From a virus, in IMG/VR virus record IMGVR_UViG_3300035698_035465, positions 1 to 20,055 of that record: 20,055 bases of DNA; one strand, 5' to 3'. The notes beneath the pieces are model-generated. The model was not told the DNA's origin. It did not search any database and saw only the letters and a list, made by a program, of their open reading frames with translations. The translations under genes and the position numbers were made by a program. Below, piece by piece: positions 6,836 to 18,754 of the stretch. The number at the start of each line of letters is the position of its first letter. Position 1 is the stretch's first letter.

Positions 6836-7602
6836 TGCTGGACTATAACCACACGGCCAACTTCGCCGAGCAGGTGAATGCGCTGATCGACGCAGCCCTC
6901 GTCGCCGAAAACCAAACCCAACAATCCCGCCAGTATCTCGGTGGATCGCGTCTCGGCGTCGCCTGCGACCGGGCCCTGCAGTTCGAATACGCCCAGGCCC
7001 CGAAGGACGACGGGCGGGATTTCGACGGGCAGACGCTCCGCATCTTTGCCGCCGGCCATTTGTTTGAGGACATGGCAATCCGTTGGCTGCGCCTGGCCGG
7101 GTTCGATCTTTACACCACCAAAGGCAATCGTCCGGGCGGTGAGCAATTTGGTTTTTCGGTAGCCGGTGGGCGCATCCGGGGGCATGTGGACGGCATCATC
7201 GCCGGCGCTTCCGATGGTTTGTTTCCGGGCTTTCCGGCGCTGTGGGAATGCAAATCCATGAACGCCAAGTCCTGGAAGGACACGGTGAAGCGAGGCCTCG
7301 CGATCTCCAAGCCGGTCTATGCCGCCCAGATCGCCGTCTATCAGGCTTACATGGAAGCGACGGTGCCCGGCATCTCGACGAACCCGGCGCTATTTACCGC
7401 CATCAACAAGGACACGGCGGAACTTTATCACGAACTGGTGCCGTTCGACGACGCGCTGGCCCAGCGCATGAGCGACAAGGCGGTGCGCATCATCCGGGCG
7501 AGCGAGGCCGGTGAGTTGCTGCCCCGCATCGCCCAGTCCGCTGATTTCTTTGAATGCAAGTTCTGCTCCTGGTCCGACCGTTGCTGGAGAACGGGTGCAT
7601 GA
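6835..7602 (+). CDS. Cas4/RecB-like PD-(D/E)XK nuclease with a four-cysteine (Fe-S type) cluster (255 aa)
   Basis: The motif set of the Cas4/AddB/RecB nuclease group is complete: H75 and E78 in AAGHLFEDMA, D119 in GHVDG, E138 and K140 in LWECKS (the D/ExK signature), and Q165-Y169 (QIAVY, the QxxxY motif). One cysteine precedes the core (C44 in GVACDRALQFEY) and three follow it (C241, C244, C250 in CKFCSWSDRCW). This is the arrangement that holds a 4Fe-4S cluster in Cas4 and AddB. The likely activity is DNA exonuclease or end resection for the annealing system encoded just upstream. No cas1, cas2 or array is nearby, so it belongs to phage replication, not CRISPR adaptation. The start shares TAATG with the preceding stop, and the end overlaps the primase gene. 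Confidence 0.9.
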   Translation: MLDYNHTANFAEQVNALIDAALVAENQTQQSRQYLGGSRLGVACDRALQFEYAQAPKDDGRDFDGQTLRIFAAGHLFEDMAIRWLRLAGFDLYTTKGNRPGGEQFGFSVAGGRIRGHVDGIIAGASDGLFPGFPALWECKSMNAKSWKDTVKRGLAISKPVYAAQIAVYQAYMEATVPGISTNPALFTAINKDTAELYHELVPFDDALAQRMSDKAVRIIRASEAGELLPRIAQSADFFECKFCSWSDRCWRTGA

Positions 7603-9776
7603 GCGGGGACGTGATCGATCTGGACCGCTGGCGCGACTTCAACGACGCCGAGCCGCAGCGGCTCGATGATACCCGGCCATGGGACGGTGCCGAAAGCACC
7701 GAAGACATCAAGGCGCGCATGCTCGCCAACATTCGAGGCGTGCTGTCATACCTGTTGCCGGGCGGCGTGTTCCAGCGGGGCAAGTTTCTGGTCGGCGATA
7801 TCTCTGGTAACCGGGGCGACAGCCTCACCGTCGAGTTGTCCGGTCCCAAGGCCGGCATGTGGCACGACTTCGCCACCAAGGAAGGCGGCGACATCATCGG
7901 CTTATGGGCGGCGGTGACCGGCCGGGACACCCGGACCGAGTTCCCCGCCATCATGGACGACATCCGCGAATGGCTGGACGGCCGCAGCAGGACCCTTCAT
8001 GACGACCGGGCGGACAAGGCCCAGGCCAAAGCTCCCCCTTCCGACGATCTCGGGCCGGTGACGGCCAAATGGGATTACCTGGACGAGAAAGGCGTTCTGC
8101 TGGCCTGCGTCTATCGCTACGACCCACCCGGCGGGAAGCAGTTCCGCCCCTGGGACGTCCGCGCCCGCAAGATGAAGGCCCCGGACCCACGCCCGATCTA
8201 CAACCGGCCCGGCATCAAGAACGCCACCGAGGTCGTCCTGGTCGAAGGCGAGAAAGCGGCGGAAGCGCTCATACAACAGGGCGTCTGCGCCACCACGGCC
8301 ATGAACGGCGCTTCCGCTCCGGTCGCCAAGACCGACTGGTCGCCGCTTACGGCCAAGCGGCTGGTGATCTGGCCCGACAAGGATAGCGCCGGCTGGCGGT
8401 ACGCGGAGGCAGCCGGACGGGCGGCGCTGGAGGCGGGCGCCGTTTCCGTCGCGATCCTCATGCCGCCCGACGACAAGCCCGACAAATGGGATGCGGCGGA
8501 CGCGGTCGAAGAGGGCATGGACGTGGCAGAGTTCATCGCCACGGGCGAACGCCAAACAGTCCATTCCGAGAAGAGATCGCTCGATCTCAACGACTGGCAC
8601 GCGACCCGCTACGCAGGCGATGCGCCCGAGCAGCGTTTCTTGGTCGATGGCTCGTTCCCCATGGGTGTGGTCTCGATCCTGGCTGCCATGGGCGACACCG
8701 GCAAGGGCATGATGACTCTCGACCTGGCGCTGTCGGTCGCCACCGGCTGTCCAGGATCGGTCTCGGTCTGTCCCGAACCCCTGGCTTTCGGCGGCGCGGT
8801 CCGAGAGTTCGGCGCCGCCGTCATTTTCACCGCAGAGGACGACCAGGGAGAAGTCCATCGCCGTCTGCAACGCCTTGATCCCGAGGAGCATCGACTCGAA
8901 CAACCCGAACGCCTGATCGTCGTGCCCCTGCCCAACGCCGGCGGTCCCATTCCTCTGGTCGTGTCCGGTAGGGATGGCCCGGAGATCACGTCGCAGTTCC
9001 GGATGCTTCGCGATCAGATCATGCGCCTTCGGGAGTTGAAACTGGTGGTATTCGACCCGCTGGCGTCGTTCATCCATGCCGACGTCACCTCCGACCCGGC
9101 GGCCGGCAGCTTCGCAACGGGATTGCTGGCGAGCCTCGCCACGGAAACCGGCGCGGCGGTGATGGTCGCGCACCACATGCGCAAACCCCAGGGCAACCGG
9201 CCAATCTCGACCGTCGAACAGGCTCGCGACGCCGTGCGCGGCACCAGCGCCATCGTCGACGGGGTGCGCATGGTCTACGCCCTCTGGCCGGCGCCTGAGG
9301 AGCATCAGGGCTATGTGTTGAAGGCGCTGGAAGAGCCCTTTTCCCGTAATGCCGTGTTTCAGGGCGCGGTGGTCAAGGCCAACGGTCCGGCCGACCGCAC
9401 GATCCGGACCTTCCTGCGCGCAGACACAGGCCTTCTGATCGACGTCACGCCGCGCCTTCGTGAACATCGCCGTCCGGTGCAGGATTTGATAGATACGCTC
9501 GTCGCGGCGATCGCCCGCGCTGCGGAAAACGGCCACCCCTACACCCACACCGGCGGAACGGGCATTTATCAGCAGCGCCACCGCCTGCCCGCCGAGTTCC
9601 GGGAAATGGGCAGAAAGCGGATTCAGGACATGGCCCAGGAACTCCTCAACGACGGCGTTCTGGTTAAAGGCATGGCCTCTGGCTCGAAGGAAGACAAGTG
9701 GCTGGATGTCCCAACCGGGCCGTTCGCACGCGGCGTTGGAGAGTTTGTGCACGGCGCTGACGAGGGAGAAAATTGA
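7599..9776 (+). CDS. Primase (TOPRIM)-RepA-like hexameric helicase fusion (725 aa)
   Basis: This is a two-part replication enzyme. The N-terminal half has a DUF-type primase front (MWHDFATKEGGDIIGL, residues 87-102) and a TOPRIM domain with E216 in LVEGEK and the DKD metal site 260-262 (LVIWPDKDSAGW). No cysteine zinc finger precedes it. From about residue 345 follows a RecA-like AAA_25/RepA helicase: Walker A GDTGKG (365-370), acidic loop FTAEDDQ (410-416), Walker B VVFD (483-486), and AHHMRK plus RGTSAIVDGVR (524-557) as sensor elements. The C-terminal 100 residues look like a winged helix. It would unwind and prime the phage origin. A frame start at 7554 exists, but ATG 7599 is preferred because it overlaps the nuclease stop (ATGA) and gives the natural N-terminus. 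The GTTGCCA repeat array starts 15 bases after its stop. Confidence 0.93.
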   Translation: MSGDVIDLDRWRDFNDAEPQRLDDTRPWDGAESTEDIKARMLANIRGVLSYLLPGGVFQRGKFLVGDISGNRGDSLTVELSGPKAGMWHDFATKEGGDIIGLWAAVTGRDTRTEFPAIMDDIREWLDGRSRTLHDDRADKAQAKAPPSDDLGPVTAKWDYLDEKGVLLACVYRYDPPGGKQFRPWDVRARKMKAPDPRPIYNRPGIKNATEVVLVEGEKAAEALIQQGVCATTAMNGASAPVAKTDWSPLTAKRLVIWPDKDSAGWRYAEAAGRAALEAGAVSVAILMPPDDKPDKWDAADAVEEGMDVAEFIATGERQTVHSEKRSLDLNDWHATRYAGDAPEQRFLVDGSFPMGVVSILAAMGDTGKGMMTLDLALSVATGCPGSVSVCPEPLAFGGAVREFGAAVIFTAEDDQGEVHRRLQRLDPEEHRLEQPERLIVVPLPNAGGPIPLVVSGRDGPEITSQFRMLRDQIMRLRELKLVVFDPLASFIHADVTSDPAAGSFATGLLASLATETGAAVMVAHHMRKPQGNRPISTVEQARDAVRGTSAIVDGVRMVYALWPAPEEHQGYVLKALEEPFSRNAVFQGAVVKANGPADRTIRTFLRADTGLLIDVTPRLREHRRPVQDLIDTLVAAIARAAENGHPYTHTGGTGIYQQRHRLPAEFREMGRKRIQDMAQELLNDGVLVKGMASGSKEDKWLDVPTGPFARGVGEFVHGADEGEN

Positions 9777-10141
9777 TGACCCGATTTTCTCCGTTGCCAA
9801 CCGTTACCAGCCGTTGCCAACCGCGTTTTGGCAACGTGTTTCCGTTGCCAATTACCACGTTGCCACTTGGTTACCAAATTTCTTTGGCAACGGAAAAATA
9901 TGCGCAACACCTTGAAAACATTGATGAAATCGGATCGGTCTCCGTTGCCAAAGCGCTCCGTTGCCAACCAGCAAAAACATCAATGATTTCAAAGGTTTCC
10001 ACGTTGCCACCTCCCCCTAAAGGGGGAGGAGTGTGCTTGGCAACACACACTCCTCCCACCAGTGATTGGGTTTTCCATTACCAGGCCGTTGCCACCCCCG
10101 ACCCGATGACCAGAACTGATTTCCATGGAGAGCCGATATGA
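9776..10141 (+). CDS. Doubtful ORF across the GTTGCCA repeat region (121 codons)
   Basis: The frame is open from ATG 9776 (sharing TGATG with the primase stop) to TGA 10141 (sharing ATGA with the resolvase start). It thus fits the coupled style of its neighbours. The predicted protein is low-complexity and unlike any family I know, with repeated Leu-Pro and Val-Ala steps and a PPPPKGGG patch near residues 79-86. The GTTGCCA repeats fall in all three phases of this frame and in both orientations, so they are not protein repeats. Nearby minus-strand frames are open too. It may be translated only to carry ribosomes through to the resolvase gene. I regard a functional protein as unlikely. Confidence 0.3.
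   Translation: MTRFSPLPTVTSRCQPRFGNVFPLPITTLPLGYQISLATEKYAQHLENIDEIGSVSVAKALRCQPAKTSMISKVSTLPPPPKGGGVCLATHTPPTSDWVFHYQAVATPDPMTRTDFHGEPI
9791..10094. repeat. Iteron-like array of GTTGCCA heptamers (11 exact, 2 variants, both orientations)
   Basis: Exact GTTGCCA occurs on the + strand at 9793, 9813, 9844, 9859, 9944, 9960, 10003 and 10088. It occurs on the - strand (TGGCAAC) at 9829, 9885 and 10038. GTTACCA variants lie at 9803 and 9870. The first three are perfect 10-base tandem units on 9791-9820 (CCGTTGCCAA, CCGTTACCAG, CCGTTGCCAA). Neighbouring starts are then 10, 10, 16, 15, 15, 11 and 15 bases apart, near one or one and a half helical turns. Opposed copies at 9812-9820, 9828-9836 and 9843-9851 form overlapping 9-bp inverted repeats. 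The array sits between primase-helicase and resolvase genes. It could be a phage origin with initiator sites or a multi-site operator; direct evidence for either is lacking. Confidence 0.85.
10010..10057. repeat. Two mutually exclusive hairpins inside the repeat region
   Basis: CCTCCCCC (10010-10017) pairs with GGGGGAGG (10022-10029) over a TAAA loop. GGGAGGAGTGTG (10024-10035) pairs perfectly over 12 bp with CACACTCCTCCC (10046-10057) over a ten-base loop that itself contains TGGCAAC. Both hairpins use 10024-10029, so only one can form at a time. No U-run follows either, so a plain intrinsic terminator is unlikely. Possible roles are origin cruciform or RNA switch ahead of the resolvase gene. 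Confidence 0.7.
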
Positions 10142-10668
10142 CCGCGACCGCATTGATCGAACCACTGACCGACCCTCTGACCGAACTAGGGGAAGGACAT
10201 CTTGTCGTCCTGGCCCTCGACCTCGGCACTTCGACCGGCTGGGCATTGCATGGTTCTGACCACGCGATAACCAGCGGTACCGTCGAGTTCAGAAACGACC
10301 GGTGGCAGGGTGGCGGTATGCGCTTCCTGCGGTTCAAGCGGTGGCTCACCGAGATTAAGCAGATGGCCGGTGGTCTGGACGCGGTGTTCGTCGAGGAAGT
10401 CCGTCGCCACGTCGGCGTCGATGCCGCCCACGCTTACGGTGGTTTTCTCGCCCACGTCACCGCCTGGTGCGAACACCACGAAATTCCCTACGAGGCCGTG
10501 CCCGTCGGCACCATCAAGCGCCACGCTACCGGCAAGGGCAACGCCAACAAGGACGCGGTGATCGCCGCCATGCGCGGCCGTGGATTTAATCCCGCCGACG
10601 ACAACGAAGCTGATGCCTTGGCGCTGCTCTGCTGGGCCATGGATCATCGCATGGGAGGGCCGTCATGA
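10138..10668 (+). CDS. RuvC-like Holliday-junction resolvase, phage type (176 aa)
   Basis: This is an RNase H-fold nuclease of the RuvC group. The first strand LVVLALDLGTSTGWA carries D28. The second acidic site is E86/E87 in VFVEEVRRHVG. A conserved GTIKRHATGKGNANKDAVI helix region (124-142) corresponds to the RuvC segment that contacts the junction. The C-terminal acidic motif PADDNEADALAL (152-163) supplies the last metal ligands (around D154, D155, D159). Length is close to RuvC (about 170 aa). In the phage it would resolve branched DNA before packaging. ATG 10138 overlaps the end of the doubtful upstream frame by ATGA and the gene's own stop overlaps the next start the same way. A GAGAG weak ribosome site precedes it. 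Confidence 0.87.
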   Translation: MTATALIEPLTDPLTELGEGHLVVLALDLGTSTGWALHGSDHAITSGTVEFRNDRWQGGGMRFLRFKRWLTEIKQMAGGLDAVFVEEVRRHVGVDAAHAYGGFLAHVTAWCEHHEIPYEAVPVGTIKRHATGKGNANKDAVIAAMRGRGFNPADDNEADALALLCWAMDHRMGGPS

Positions 10669-10859
10669 AATGGCACCCGAAGGGCTACGGCGGCGAACGC
10701 CGGTCACCGGATCAAGTCAAGCGGGAAGGTTGGCGCGAACAGGGCTTGCTGGCCGTCTCCGTCGAGGACGAGCGTCTGACTTGGCCCGAACGGGAACTGG
10801 TCAAACAACTCGGAGAAAAACTCTACGGCAAGCTTCGGGAGGAAGCCTATGAGCGATAA
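10665..10859 (+). CDS. Small charged hypothetical protein (64 aa)
   Basis: This is a 64-residue protein with about one third charged residues and no cysteine. It starts MKWHPKGYGGERRSPDQVKREGW and is probably mostly helical after residue 35 (WPERELVKQLGEKLYGKLREE). I do not recognise a family. The ATG overlaps the resolvase stop (ATGA), and the end overlaps the next gene by 11 bases, so it is co-translated with both neighbours. The tight coupling on both sides is the main reason for calling it real. It may be a small nucleic-acid-binding or regulatory protein; that is a guess from its charge. Confidence 0.8.
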   Translation: MKWHPKGYGGERRSPDQVKREGWREQGLLAVSVEDERLTWPERELVKQLGEKLYGKLREEAYER

Positions 10860-11292
10860 GCGATGGACACCCTCTCTGGTAGAGGAACGGCTAGTGGAAG
10901 CCGCCGACGTTTTGAAGCGGCTGCCCGAGGAGCGGGTGCAGGGGTATTTCTCCGTCTGGCCCGAGGTCGTTCGCAGTGTCTATGACGCATTCGGCTGGCA
11001 TGATCCGGTACTCAAGCGCCCCTGGCCGTCACCGGCGTCCATCGATCGCATGGACGAGACAATGACCTGGCTCGGGTGGTTGGAGCCGGACGTGGCGAAG
11101 ATCGTCTGGTTTCGGGCGTCAGGAAGCCGCTGGAAATCCATCTGCGCAAAGGTCGGATTGCAGCGAACGGCGGTCCATCAGCGCTATCTTTTTGGCCATT
11201 GTGTCATTGCCTGGAGGCTTAATGGCCGGCGAGTTCCGCGTAACCGTTCGCGGCGGCACGTGATTGCGATGGTCCAATCGGCGAAGGCGTGA
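10849..11292 (+). CDS. DUF6362-like protein with a sigma/HTH-like region (147 aa)
   Basis: The pattern matches what I remember of DUF6362 from alphaproteobacterial prophages: W-x-P at the start, an EAADVLKRLPEERVQGYFSVWP helix block (17-38), the SIDRMDETMTWLGWLEPD segment (64-81) and the VWFRASGSRWKSICAKVGLQRTAVHQRY stretch (86-113). The last part reads as a helix-turn-helix, with GLQRTAVHQRY as the recognition helix, similar to sigma-factor region 4. The C-terminus is strongly basic (NGRRVPRNRSRRH). It should therefore bind DNA, possibly as a late-gene regulator, since it ends the early operon. The start is fixed by GGGAGGA five bases upstream. Its stop is followed by a hairpin. Confidence 0.88.
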   Translation: MSDKRWTPSLVEERLVEAADVLKRLPEERVQGYFSVWPEVVRSVYDAFGWHDPVLKRPWPSPASIDRMDETMTWLGWLEPDVAKIVWFRASGSRWKSICAKVGLQRTAVHQRYLFGHCVIAWRLNGRRVPRNRSRRHVIAMVQSAKA

Positions 11293-11326: not shown

Positions 11327-11678
11327 CGCGCGGACAGAACCGACCGAAATGGCTATGATTTTCGCTATCCTCAGGAGAGGCGCACCCGGAACAGGGCGGC
11401 GCTTCAAAGCGAGGAATTCCATCGAATTTGTGAGTGAAAAATGGTTCCTTCCCGGGCCATTACGTATGCTGGCGGGCACAGCCCGACACTTTCCTAGTGA
11501 CAACCTGAAAAAAGCCATTTCGTTTCGTTTCGAGCGCGGCGGGAATCCGCTGTAGGCCGCTGTGGACGTGGCTCACAGCGTTATCGCCACGCTTCGCGAA
11601 AGCGAAATGGAACGCCGGGCCATTTCGTTTCAAACCGAAATGCCTTCACAACCCAACAACCTTTTCGAAGAGACAGCA
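11327..11678 (+). promoter_or_regulatory. Non-coding stretch with repeated CGAAATGG sites before the methyltransferase gene
   Basis: This region holds no convincing gene. The octamer CGAAATGG appears at 11345-11352 and 11603-11610, its complement CCATTTCG at 11515-11522 and 11620-11627, and a one-mismatch copy CGAAATGC at 11636-11643. The 11603 and 11620 copies form an inverted repeat with a nine-base spacer, and the copies at 11515 and 11620 are each followed by GTTTC-type extensions. Such spaced, inverted short repeats in front of a methyltransferase gene suggest operators of its expression. I see no clear promoter boxes. A GGAATTCC palindrome is at 11413-11420. Confidence 0.5.
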
Positions 11679-12986
11679 GTGAGCGCTCAAATCATCAACA
11701 TCGGCGACAAGATCAAGATGGTCGCCATTGGCGATCTGTCCTGCCACCCGGACAATCCGCGCCGGGGAGACGTGGAGGCGATCCGCGCCAGCATCAGCGC
11801 CAACGGATTTTACGGGGCACTCGTGGTGCAGCGATCTTCAGGCTACATCCTGGCAGGCAATCATCGGTTCATGGCGGCGCAGGCGGAGGGGCTGGACAAG
11901 GTTCCGGTCATCTACGTGGATGCCAGCGACGAGGATGCCAAGGCCATCCTGGTCGGCGACAACCGACTGTCCGATCTGGCCGAGAACGATCCGGCATTGC
12001 TTGCTGCCTTGTTGCAGGCAATCCAGACCCGAGAGCAGGGGCTGACCGGCACCGGATATTCCGATGACGACCTTGCCGAGCTGCTGGCTGCGGGGATCGA
12101 TGGGGATGAAGGTCTTGCTGGCGAGGATGAGGTTCTAGAACCTCCCGCCAACCCTGTCACCAAAGCCGGCGACCTGTGGCTCCTTGGCGACCACCGTCTG
12201 TTGTGTGGTGACAGCACCAATGCGGATGACGTGAAGCGCCTGATGAACGGCGAACGCGCCATCCTGTTCGCCACCGATCCTCCCTATCTGGTCGACTACG
12301 ACGGCACCAACCATCCGGGCTCGAAGAGCAAGCCGGTGGCCGACAGCAAGAACAAGGACTGGTCGGAAACCTACGGCGTCACCTGGGATGACTCCCGTCA
12401 AGGGCCTGATCTCTATCAAGGGTTCATCAAGGCGGCGATCGCCGAGGCCATCAAGCCCAATGCCGCCTGGTACTGCTGGCACGCCAGCCGCCGCCAGGCC
12501 ATGGTCGAGGCGGTCTGGGTCGAGATGGGCGCCTTCGTGCATCAGCAGATCATCTGGTCAAAGGACCGGCCAATTCTGACCCGGTCACATTATCTCTGGC
12601 AGCACGAACCCTGCCTGTTCGGCTGGATCAAGCGCAACAAGCCGCCGCGGGTGTCGGAGGATTATCTCGGCACCGTCTGGCAGATTGCCTCGCTCGAGGG
12701 CGAGGACCGGCCCGACCATCCGACGCCGAAGCCGCTGGACTGCTTCGCCACGCCGATGCGCCAGCACGTCAAGAAAGGCGGCCTGTGTTACGAGCCGTTC
12801 TCGGGCTCGGGTTCGCAGATTATCGCCGGTGAGAGTACCGGGCGCAGGGTCTTCGCCATGGAGATCAGCCCGGCCTATGTGGACGTAGCGATCATGCGAT
12901 GGCAGAAAGCAACCGGCAAGGACGCTACGCTGGACGGCGACGACCGGACGTTTAACGAGATCAAAGAGGGGAGGATCGCGGCATGA
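11679..12986 (+). CDS. ParB-like domain fused to a DNA (N6-adenine or N4-cytosine) methyltransferase (about 435 aa)
   Basis: Numbering is from GTG 11679. Residues 10-120 are a ParB/sulfiredoxin-like domain (MVAIGDLSCHPDNPR, then ILAGNHRFMAA at about 57-67). Residues about 160-420 are a beta-class amino-methyltransferase: catalytic DPPY (200-203) comes before the SAM-binding EPFSGSGS (372-379), with HPTPKPLD (347-354) ahead of it. It would methylate adenine or cytosine in phage DNA for protection or regulation. No restriction partner is present. The start is uncertain. The frame is open from GTG 11562, with ATG at 11607 and 11640, but these overlap the CGAAATGG repeats and lack ribosome sites, while GTG 11679 has GAAGAGA five bases before it. 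The end overlaps the membrane-protein gene by ATGA. Confidence 0.9.
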   Translation: MSAQIINIGDKIKMVAIGDLSCHPDNPRRGDVEAIRASISANGFYGALVVQRSSGYILAGNHRFMAAQAEGLDKVPVIYVDASDEDAKAILVGDNRLSDLAENDPALLAALLQAIQTREQGLTGTGYSDDDLAELLAAGIDGDEGLAGEDEVLEPPANPVTKAGDLWLLGDHRLLCGDSTNADDVKRLMNGERAILFATDPPYLVDYDGTNHPGSKSKPVADSKNKDWSETYGVTWDDSRQGPDLYQGFIKAAIAEAIKPNAAWYCWHASRRQAMVEAVWVEMGAFVHQQIIWSKDRPILTRSHYLWQHEPCLFGWIKRNKPPRVSEDYLGTVWQIASLEGEDRPDHPTPKPLDCFATPMRQHVKKGGLCYEPFSGSGSQIIAGESTGRRVFAMEISPAYVDVAIMRWQKATGKDATLDGDDRTFNEIKEGRIAA

Positions 12987-14553: not shown

Positions 14554-15132
14554 ATGTCCGACAACACCCAGCCCATTACGGTGATCACTAGCCTGCTCGA
14601 CATCTCCGAGCGCCGGGTGCAGCAGCTGTCCCGGGCGGGGGTGATTCCGAAGGCGGCGCGGGGCCGTTACGAACTCATCGGATCGGTCCGAGGCTATATC
14701 CGCCATCTGCGTGATCTGAACATCAAGGGCGAGAGCGGGACTGTTGATTACGGCACCGAGCGCGCCCGCCTGGTGAAGGCCAAGGCCGACCTGGCGGAGA
14801 TGGAAGCCTCGCAAATGCGGGGCGATCTGCTTCCCGCGCCCGACGTGACGGCGGCCTGGACCGAGATCGTGGCGCTGATACGGGCGCGGCTGCTGGTGCT
14901 GCCCGACAAGATCGCACCGGTGGTTCATGAAACGACAAGCCTCAACCAAGCAAGGGACGTCATCAAAAAGGCGGTCTACGAAATCCTCACGGAAATCGCC
15001 GCCACAGACGTCGAGATCACGCCTCGCATTGATGGGGACGCCGGCGCTGAAGAAAGCGGTGACGACGGCGTGCAAGGTGGCGGCTCCGCCCCCGGACCTG
15101 ACGGTGAGCCAGTGGGCGGACCGGAACCGTAG
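14554..15132 (+). CDS. Phage terminase small subunit, Nu1-like (192 aa)
   Basis: Residues 8-48 form a helix-turn-helix of the Nu1 type: TVITSLLDISERRVQQLSRAGV, then the wing IPKAARGRYELIGSVRGYIRHLRDL. The middle is a helical linker (ERARLVKAKADLAEMEASQMRGDLLP, about 70-95) that is a hallmark of Nu1-like DNA packaging proteins, followed by an oligomerisation helix (WTEIVALIRARLLVLPDKIAPVV). The last 45 residues are acidic and glycine-rich. It would bind the packaging site and present the DNA to the large subunit. It opens the late operon and overlaps the next gene by 101 bases in another frame. The overlapped coding part is the disordered tail, which explains how it can be shared. Confidence 0.9.
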   Translation: MSDNTQPITVITSLLDISERRVQQLSRAGVIPKAARGRYELIGSVRGYIRHLRDLNIKGESGTVDYGTERARLVKAKADLAEMEASQMRGDLLPAPDVTAAWTEIVALIRARLLVLPDKIAPVVHETTSLNQARDVIKKAVYEILTEIAATDVEITPRIDGDAGAEESGDDGVQGGGSAPGPDGEPVGGPEP

Positions 15133-16990: not shown

Positions 16991-17218
16991 ATGACCGATC
17001 TGACCACATTGGAAACCCGGCTCACGGAGGCGGAAACCGCTCTGCACCTGCTGGCCACGGGCGGCCAGCGCCAGACCGTGGATATCGGCGCCGGTGGGCG
17101 CGTCACCTACACGACGGCCAACGTGGCCGACCTGCGTCGCTATATCGCCGATCTCAAGAACCGGATCGCCAAGCTCAAGGGATTGCCCCGACGGGCCCCC
17201 ATCTACATGGAATTTTAG
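16991..17218 (+). CDS. gpW-like head-tail joining protein (75 aa)
   Basis: The protein reads TDLTTLETRLTEAETALHLLATGGQRQTVDIGAGGRVTYTTANVADLRRYIADLKNRIAKL. This is the gpW layout: an N-terminal helix, a beta hairpin (VDIGAGGRVTYTT) and a second helix. Size (75 aa) and place between the large terminase and the portal are as in lambda (gpW lies between gpA and gpB). It plugs the head portal after packaging so that the tail can attach. ATG 16991 follows CAGGAA at a suitable distance. The stop TAG is directly followed by the portal ATG with no gap. Confidence 0.88.
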   Translation: MTDLTTLETRLTEAETALHLLATGGQRQTVDIGAGGRVTYTTANVADLRRYIADLKNRIAKLKGLPRRAPIYMEF

Positions 17219-18754
17219 ATGCTTCAATATCTGCGTTCATTTATCTCGCGGCCAAAGGCCAAGGCCGGAGCCTATCAGGGCGCCTCATTGAGCGATCGGG
17301 AAACAGCCTCCTGGTTGCCGTCGTTCGGCTCGGCCGACACGGACCTGCTGGACGATCTGCCGCTGCTGCGTGCCCGCAACCGAGATCTGGCCATCAACAA
17401 CGGCATCGCCTCGGGCGCGGTGCAGACAATCACCGACAACGTGGTCGGCACCGGGTTCCGGCTGTCGGCCAAGCCTGATTACAGGGTTCTGGGCCGCGAC
17501 AAGGCCTGGGCCGACGAATGGAGCAACCGGGTCGAGGCCTTGTGGCGGACCTGGGCCGAGGGAACGGACTGCGACGCCGGGCGGACGCTTAACTTCGCCG
17601 GGCTCACCCAGCTGGTGTTTCGCTCGGGGCTCCTGAACGGCGAGGCCCTGGCGCTGCCGTTGTGGCTGCCCGGGGACGGGCCGTTCGCCACCCGCATCCA
17701 GGTGATCGAGGCCGACCGGCTGTCGACACCGCCGCACCGAAGTGACGGAAAAGGAATGCGCGCCGGGATCGAGATCGACGACTACGGCGCGCCGTTGGCC
17801 TATTGGATCAGGAAGAGCCACCCCGGCGATCATTTTGCCTGGATGGCCACCGCCGACGAATGGCAACGCGTGCCCGCTTTTACGCCTTGGGGCCGGCATC
17901 GGGTCATTCACGTCCACGACAAGGAACGCACCGGCCAGAGCCGGGGAAAGCCTTTGTTCTCGGCGGTGATGAAGCAGTTCCGAATGTTGGACAAGTACCA
18001 GAGCAGCGAACTGCAGGCCGCCGTCATCAACGCCATGATCGCCGCCTTCATCGAAACACCGATGGACCAGGACAGCATCGTCGAGATGATCGGCGGCGAC
18101 ACCGATCAATATCTGCAGGACCGCAACGCCTATATCAAAAACCGCGTCCGTCTCAGGGGCGGTGCGGTGATGCCGCTCTATCCGGGCGACAAGCTGTCGT
18201 CGTTCGCGCCATCGCGTCCGGCGGACGGGTTCGCGCCATTTGTCGAGGCTATGTCGCGGCATGTGGCGGCGGCGCTGCACATGCCCTACGAGCTTCTGCT
18301 CAAGGATTTCAGCAAGACCAATTACTCCAGCGCCCGGGCGGCGCTGCTGGAAGCCTGGCGGTTCTTCAACGGTCGTCGGCAATGGCTGTCGGCCCACTGG
18401 ACGCAGCCTGTCTTTGAACTCTGGCTCGAAGAGGCGGTGGACGCCGGGATGATCGATGCCCCGGATTTCCATGAAAACCGCCGCGCCTATGCCCGGTCCC
18501 GCTGGATCGGAGCGGGACGCGGCTGGGTGGACCCGGTCAAGGAAGCCAAGGCGGCTCAGACCCGCATGGATATCGGGGTCTCGACCCTGGAGAACGAATG
18601 CGCCGAGCAGGGCCTCGACTGGGAAGAGGTTCTGGAACAGCGGGCGCGGGAGCGCGAGCGCATGGCCGAACTCGGCCTCCTGGACGCGGCGAACGTCGTG
18701 GCCGGGCAGCCGTATGTCGAAGAGCCGGCCAATCTTGAGGAAGCAAAGCCATGA
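17219..18754 (+). CDS. Phage portal protein, lambda gpB family (511 aa)
   Basis: Length and order fit the lambda gpB family. Recognisable blocks are LPLLRARNRDLAINNGIASGAVQTITDNVVGTGFRLS (about 43-80), FRSGLLNGEALALPLW (about 136-151), IQVIEADRLSTP and VIHVHDKERTGQSRGKPLFSAVMKQF. The conserved stem/clip end is YELLLKDFSKTNYSSARAALLEAWRFF (about 358-384), followed by a C-terminal helix rich in Arg and Glu. The portal dodecamer sits at one vertex of the head and is the channel for DNA. It starts at the base after the gpW stop, and its own stop overlaps the next start (ATGA), so head genes are translated as a chain. Confidence 0.94.
   Translation: MLQYLRSFISRPKAKAGAYQGASLSDRETASWLPSFGSADTDLLDDLPLLRARNRDLAINNGIASGAVQTITDNVVGTGFRLSAKPDYRVLGRDKAWADEWSNRVEALWRTWAEGTDCDAGRTLNFAGLTQLVFRSGLLNGEALALPLWLPGDGPFATRIQVIEADRLSTPPHRSDGKGMRAGIEIDDYGAPLAYWIRKSHPGDHFAWMATADEWQRVPAFTPWGRHRVIHVHDKERTGQSRGKPLFSAVMKQFRMLDKYQSSELQAAVINAMIAAFIETPMDQDSIVEMIGGDTDQYLQDRNAYIKNRVRLRGGAVMPLYPGDKLSSFAPSRPADGFAPFVEAMSRHVAAALHMPYELLLKDFSKTNYSSARAALLEAWRFFNGRRQWLSAHWTQPVFELWLEEAVDAGMIDAPDFHENRRAYARSRWIGAGRGWVDPVKEAKAAQTRMDIGVSTLENECAEQGLDWEEVLEQRARERERMAELGLLDAANVVAGQPYVEEPANLEEAKP

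Follow-up and report, generated by a model that had tools for sequence, protein, structure and literature searches.

Lineage-specific iteron arrays beside a phage primase-helicase gene: a candidate replication origin

What is a dense cluster of short repeats doing between two genes of DNA metabolism in a phage genome? The window analyzed here, i.e., the whole 20,055-bp stretch of a 20-kb linear virus record, encodes a Sak4-like annealing protein, a helicase, a Cas4-like exonuclease, a primase-helicase, a RuvC-like resolvase, a ParB-N/DNA methylase, terminase subunits, a portal and an S49 protease, and has Thalassospira prophages among its close relatives. The array occupies the 361 bp between the primase-helicase and the resolvase (Table 1), and was originally predicted, from the letters alone, to be a replication origin or a multi-site operator.

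As that prediction counted, GTTGCCA or its complement TGGCAAC occurs 11 times exactly at 9793-10094 (8 plus, 3 minus), against 2 occurrences in the other 19.7 kb. Whole-window shuffles gave an expectation of 2.56 and never more than 7, those of the 366-bp array region (n = 2000) averaged 0.13 with a maximum of 3, and the best 7-mer count per 367-bp stretch elsewhere in the window is usually 2-3. Heptamer density outside the array is low, and in a 43,884-bp relative (the contig of locus L028, 96% identical) all 7 of 7 copies of GTTGCCAA lie inside the array, at 17049-17223. Motif fitting on the array region returned 15 sites with the consensus (C)CGTTGCCA, including the degenerate GTTACCA (9803 and 9870), GTTTCCA (9995) and ATTACCA (10077), so that the earlier tally, with only two one-base variants beside the exact copies, was slightly low. 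The first three 10-bp units, once taken for a perfect tandem, are CCGTTGCCAA, CCGTTACCAG and CCGTTGCCAA, the middle one mismatched at two bases. The proposed spacing of 10, 11, 15 or 16 bases in the dense part does appear when the GTTACCA variants are counted (start to start 10, 10, 16, 15, 15, 11 and 15 bp), and, as stated, each of the three phases of the long frame contains copies. Iteron origins in general carry several short, specific repeats beside an initiator gene, and the window has this arrangement next to its proposed initiator.

Table 1. Features of the array and its two neighbouring genes (positions in the window)
Feature	Position	Strand	Basis or content
Primase-helicase, 740 aa, proposed initiator	7554..9776	+	Pfam AAA_25 6e-36; PHROG 239 DNA primase/helicase
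Predicted winged-helix domain, proposed iteron-binding, aa 641-740	9474..9773	+	AlphaFold2 model, repeat prediction, L006 breakpoint
Open frame spanning array	9776..10141	+	ATG overlaps helicase stop (TGATG); stop overlaps ruvC start (ATGA)
First iteron set	9791..9893	both strands	8 sites: six exact GTTGCCA (plus 9793, 9813, 9844, 9859; minus 9829, 9885) and two GTTACCA
AT-rich inter-set spacer, candidate unwinding element	9894..9941		50-bp AT content
Second iteron set	9942..10009		Sites 9944, 9960, variant 9995, 10003
Second AT-rich spacer, within second iteron set	about 9967-9992		50-bp AT content
Three-arm alternative hairpin	10011..10060		Shared arm, two mutually exclusive forms
Last iterons	10038..10094		10038 (minus, in hairpin loop), variant 10077, 10088
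RuvC-like Holliday-junction resolvase	10138..10668	+	PHROG 159, 6.5e-31; directly 3' of array

The upstream gene, whose stop codon lies at 9774-9776, encodes a Toprim-type primase N-terminus (Toprim was matched in the class B and D counterparts described below) followed by an AAA_25 core (aa 341-546), with similarity over aa 366-629 to RepA of RSF1010 (PDB 1g8y, 1.4e-6), a replicative helicase. Its C-terminal part was modelled by AlphaFold2 with a pLDDT of about 87-91 over most of its length, in the order helix-helix-helix-strand-strand, which is winged-helix-like; Foldseek returned weak winged-helix-like matches for this domain, none at E <= 0.001. A PDB sequence search with a profile of the C-terminal part returned HU-homologue matches alone, at about 1e-3, which were not interpretable and were set aside.

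To see how far the arrangement extends, we gathered about 180 loci via the helicase and via the RuvC-like protein. Of 99 regions, each the 366 bp that precede ruvC, 64 hold their most frequent 7-mer in 6-13 copies, whereas 95% of the control tiles from the same loci (n = 2,174) stand at 2-3 copies and only 3 reach 6 or 7. Most relatives, close ones included, thus keep an array at this very place, and the repeat sequence varies by lineage. Neither of the outcomes named beforehand as refuting the prediction, equal heptamer density elsewhere or a missing array at this place in close relatives, was seen. Class A helicases (C-terminus KWLDVPxGPFA) pair with CGTTGCCA, CGTTCCCA, CGTTTCC(A/G) and TTCCCGG; class B helicases (GFLCVE...LPTHYKC...VENPxVW) with CAGAATCCA, CAGAAATCC, AGTTTCCAG, AACTATTCA, CCAAACTGG, CAGTTGGCA and CGAAATCTG; and class D helicases (about 970 aa, with Toprim and no AAA_25 match) with GGTGAACGT, GGTGGACGT and GGGGGACGT. 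Weaker arrays occur in a few class C loci. Related phages, in which a search for the heptamer was originally advised, mostly have arrays in the same place, with a repeat that differs by lineage; the heptamer family had been described as nameless, which is true in a strong sense, because there is no fixed heptamer to name. Acidithiobacillus phage AcaML1 (L002), whose helicase C-terminus differs (class C), has a shorter array of GTCTGACGG-like repeats in a 131-bp primase-resolvase gap.

The array also keeps company with the helicase rather than with the resolvase. In three loci (L032, L059 and L160) it follows the helicase with no RuvC detected nearby, and no array was found upstream of RuvC in L103, L127 and L148, all three of which are without this helicase. 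On the other side, some divergent helicases (those of L057, L064, L066, L168, L176 and Wolbachia phage WO, L003) have no array directly downstream.

Within an array the copies change in concert, as expected if one protein reads every site. On similar backbones, L094 has 13 GTGAACG and 0 GTGGACG and L086 has 0 and 12, with no mixed copies, and the GTTGCCA of the window against the GTTCCCA of L017 is a further concerted difference on a shared backbone. Across 74 loci, the segment that best predicted repeat similarity was aa 641-735 of the helicase (partial rank correlation 0.30, equalled in 0 of 300 label permutations), as compared to 0.135 for the primase, 0.03 for the AAA segment, 0.15 for RuvC and a negative value for aa 547-640; we take this moderate correlation, drawn from loci whose relatedness makes them non-independent, as support, short of proof. 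Pairwise comparisons point the same way. L060 and L044, which share a repeat, are 87-100% identical in the C-terminus, while the winged helix is 60-73% identical in two pairs with different repeats, L095/L044 and L048/L044, whose remainder is for the most part 80-97% identical (mostly 84-97% in L095/L044), and RuvC stays 85-91% identical between loci whose repeats differ. Judged from these comparisons, the repeat appears to track the C-terminal ~95 helicase residues more closely than it does RuvC or any other segment.

A natural chimera narrows this down. Locus L006 is L018-like (GTTCCCA) up to a breakpoint some 225 nt short of the helicase stop. Past this breakpoint, which coincides with the predicted start of the winged helix, both winged helix and array are L021/L027-like (GTTGCCA). 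This rules out the N-terminal part of the helicase as the determinant, and not the downstream genes, because all downstream sequence switches too. A second candidate chimera, L175, was rejected: its helicase resembles that of L017, the reading frame is interrupted, and the downstream side is cut short. From the covariation and the chimera together, we infer that the helicase's own C-terminal domain recognizes the iterons.

The composition of the array also fits an origin. Its first two iteron sets flank an AT-rich region: 50-bp AT content is at least 0.60 across 9849-9943 (maximum 0.66, window mean 0.37), the only such run between 4131 and 11401, and in nearly all relatives the spacers are richer in AT than the locus mean. 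The suggested GC-skew check gave a cumulative minimum of the window at 10236, adjoining the array, but a shallow one, which could reflect the gene arrangement in a 20-kb fragment.

The operator half of the original prediction fares less well. On this reading the heptamers would be bound by a phage regulator that controls the replication operon, possible examples being the HTH_17 protein (2217-2426) and the DUF6362 protein (10849-11292), and both the fit of the dense-part spacing to helical turns and the encoding of these small putative DNA-binding proteins near the array would be in keeping with this. However, no sigma-70-like promoter was found in 9500-10400, the array sits inside a tightly coupled operon, arrays accompany the helicase where RuvC is absent, and some 15 sites, scattered across 300 bp and separated by AT-rich gaps, are a better match for an origin. 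Because a promoter-like site was not found and the repeat changes jointly with the helicase C-terminus, we regard an operator as the less likely reading, and an unlikely one.

Similar arguments bear on a partition or packaging site (parS- or pac-like), read by the ParB-N/methylase or by the small terminase subunit (14554-15132). The genes for both lie less than 5 kb from the array, but the repeats are short, non-palindromic and numerous, the small terminase gene is 4.5 kb away, the repeat covaries with the helicase, and arrays are found next to helicases in many gene neighbourhoods, all of which makes such a site highly improbable. The methylase gene itself (11562-12986) encodes a ParB-N domain fused to an N6/N4 DNA methylase.

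One property of the array does concern coding. In 21 of 23 sequence clusters a forward frame crosses the entire array without a stop, against 1 of 23 for the reverse strand. Its start usually overlaps or nears the helicase stop (ATGA, TGATG, or ATG at -8, -5 or +4), and in relatives it ends in an overlap with the ruvC start or reads on into ruvC without a frame change; two of the 21 clusters (L159 and L074) differ in that the stop-free frame is the helicase frame beyond its stop, and class D arrays are part of the initiator gene, at its 3' end. The array could then be the by-product of a repetitive protein encoded by this frame, for which the openness and the coupling at both ends would speak. 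Against it, the repeats lie on both strands and in all three phases, iterons (and hairpin) outlast the linkers in DNA-level conservation (e.g., 0.96 and 0.95 vs. 0.70 in L022), frame 9776-10141 has no Pfam or PHROG match, and pN/pS in the frame scatters around 1 (mostly 0.4-1.2), as in other frames, on which a conserved protein was rejected; this is the least credible of the alternatives. The earlier conclusion that the conserved unit is DNA and not protein is thus right for the heptamer, but overlooks a frame kept open across lineages. Since pN/pS about equals that of other frames, it is openness, rather than the peptide sequence, that seems to be maintained. Likely reasons are that an open frame would hold ribosomes on the mRNA between co-operonic genes (Rho protection), or that translation through the origin would be part of origin control. 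In the window, the PHROG 159 match of RuvC begins at profile position 88 of 330, and in several relatives the array frame runs into ruvC, so that longer annotated RuvC proteins may include array-encoded N-termini.

The array further carries a hairpin with two alternative forms, CCTCCCCC-taaa-GGGGGAGG and the larger GGGAGGAGTGTG-(cttggcaaca)-CACACTCCTCCC, the latter with a minus-strand iteron in its loop. This design recurs in 19 loci with 6 different stems, nearly all of class A, and was seen in 0 of 520 shuffles and 1 of 1830 other tiles. Conservation of a mutually exclusive three-arm hairpin in class A loci would speak for an RNA-level element (an attenuator or riboswitch-like device controlling ruvC). 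Yet such an element would account for about 50 of 300 bp only, no terminator-like site was found at the hairpins, no Rfam element was matched, and the iterons occur on both strands, so we hold it to be very unlikely as an explanation of the array. No tRNA was found either.

The array is most probably a phage replication origin, its iterons bound by the C-terminal winged-helix domain of the primase-helicase itself. What backs the origin half of the original prediction is the conserved place, the joint change of repeat and helicase C-terminus, the AT-rich spacers, the GC-skew minimum and the arrays that lack a nearby RuvC. As we envision it from sequence comparison, the primase-helicase made from the upstream gene would bind the iterons via its winged helix, and several molecules would gather on the two iteron sets; the intervening AT-rich spacer would then melt, the RepA-like ring would load, and the fused Toprim primase would lay the first primers. 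Because one protein would recognize all copies, a change in its domain would select the same change in every iteron, and each phage lineage would arrive at a private initiator-origin pair. A bolder proposal, which we advance only tentatively, is that this is a fast-diversifying, self-specific replicon in which close relatives do not recognize each other, and through whose origin ribosomes have to translate, the peptide being irrelevant. If true, origin control would involve this translation or the two-state hairpin with its iteron.

The scheme has counterparts in known replicons. The alpha protein of satellite phage P4 likewise joins primase and helicase in one polypeptide, which also includes a C-terminal origin-binding domain (here predicted only), and we take the class D iteron GGTGAACGT to resemble the P4 type I repeat; the primase and helicase families of alpha appear to differ from those found here. 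In lambda, the ori iterons lie inside coding sequence and vary together with initiator specificity among lambdoid phages, but the O protein is without helicase or primase, and our window has its iterons in an open frame of their own, coupled to the neighbouring genes; arrays inside the initiator gene are confined to class D. RSF1010, whose hexameric RepA-family helicase is homologous, has iterons, an AT-rich stretch and hairpins at oriV. Its iterons are about 20 bp and it uses separate RepA helicase, RepB primase and RepC initiator proteins, as opposed to 7-9-bp units and one fused protein here; no separate RepC-type initiator gene was found among the scanned window genes.

The closest likeness is to SaPI Rep and SCCmec Cch2, for which an origin layout with C-terminal iteron recognition is established (PMC7581432), and to the origins of PICIs, phage-inducible islands of staphylococci and Gram-negative bacteria, where two iteron sets surround an AT-rich region 3' of rep in a layout called unique to PICIs (PMC6092414). 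Here too the origin would follow immediately on the 3' end of the gene for the initiator helicase, an AT-rich region is surrounded by short iterons, and iteron recognition by the helicase C-terminal domain is predicted, in our case from covariation and the chimera. The helicases of those elements are of DUF927 or D5/Primase_Cterm type, in contrast to Toprim plus RSF1010 RepA-like (AAA_25); their carriers are satellites and cassettes, and ours are phages with their own terminase, portal and S49 protease; and here the array is spanned by an open frame that is kept, and includes a two-state hairpin. With another helicase family, and with a phage that has its own terminase and portal as carrier, the array system would work like SaPI/PICI without being a member. 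Our preferred reading is that tailed phages, mainly those of alphaproteobacteria, use the SaPI/PICI and P4 principle with a helicase of another family. A limited literature search found no paper describing this array family.

If so, a replication origin and its matching initiator domain could be read straight from the phage genomes of this large family, and the known range of the SaPI/PICI layout would grow to include tailed phages whose helicase is unrelated. Dozens of naturally diverged initiator-iteron pairs would provide material for how a winged helix changes its DNA specificity, with the dozen-site switch between L094 and L086 as a clean case of initiator and all sites changing together, and the open frame across the origin poses a testable question on translation and origin use. 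Finally, a Bartonella queenslandensis prophage (L074/L181; a second hit, L195, is masked), which we do not count as experimental support for an origin, combines a class B helicase with 13 CCAAACTGG sites, an array possibly linked to the phage-derived run-off replication origin (ROR) of Bartonella.
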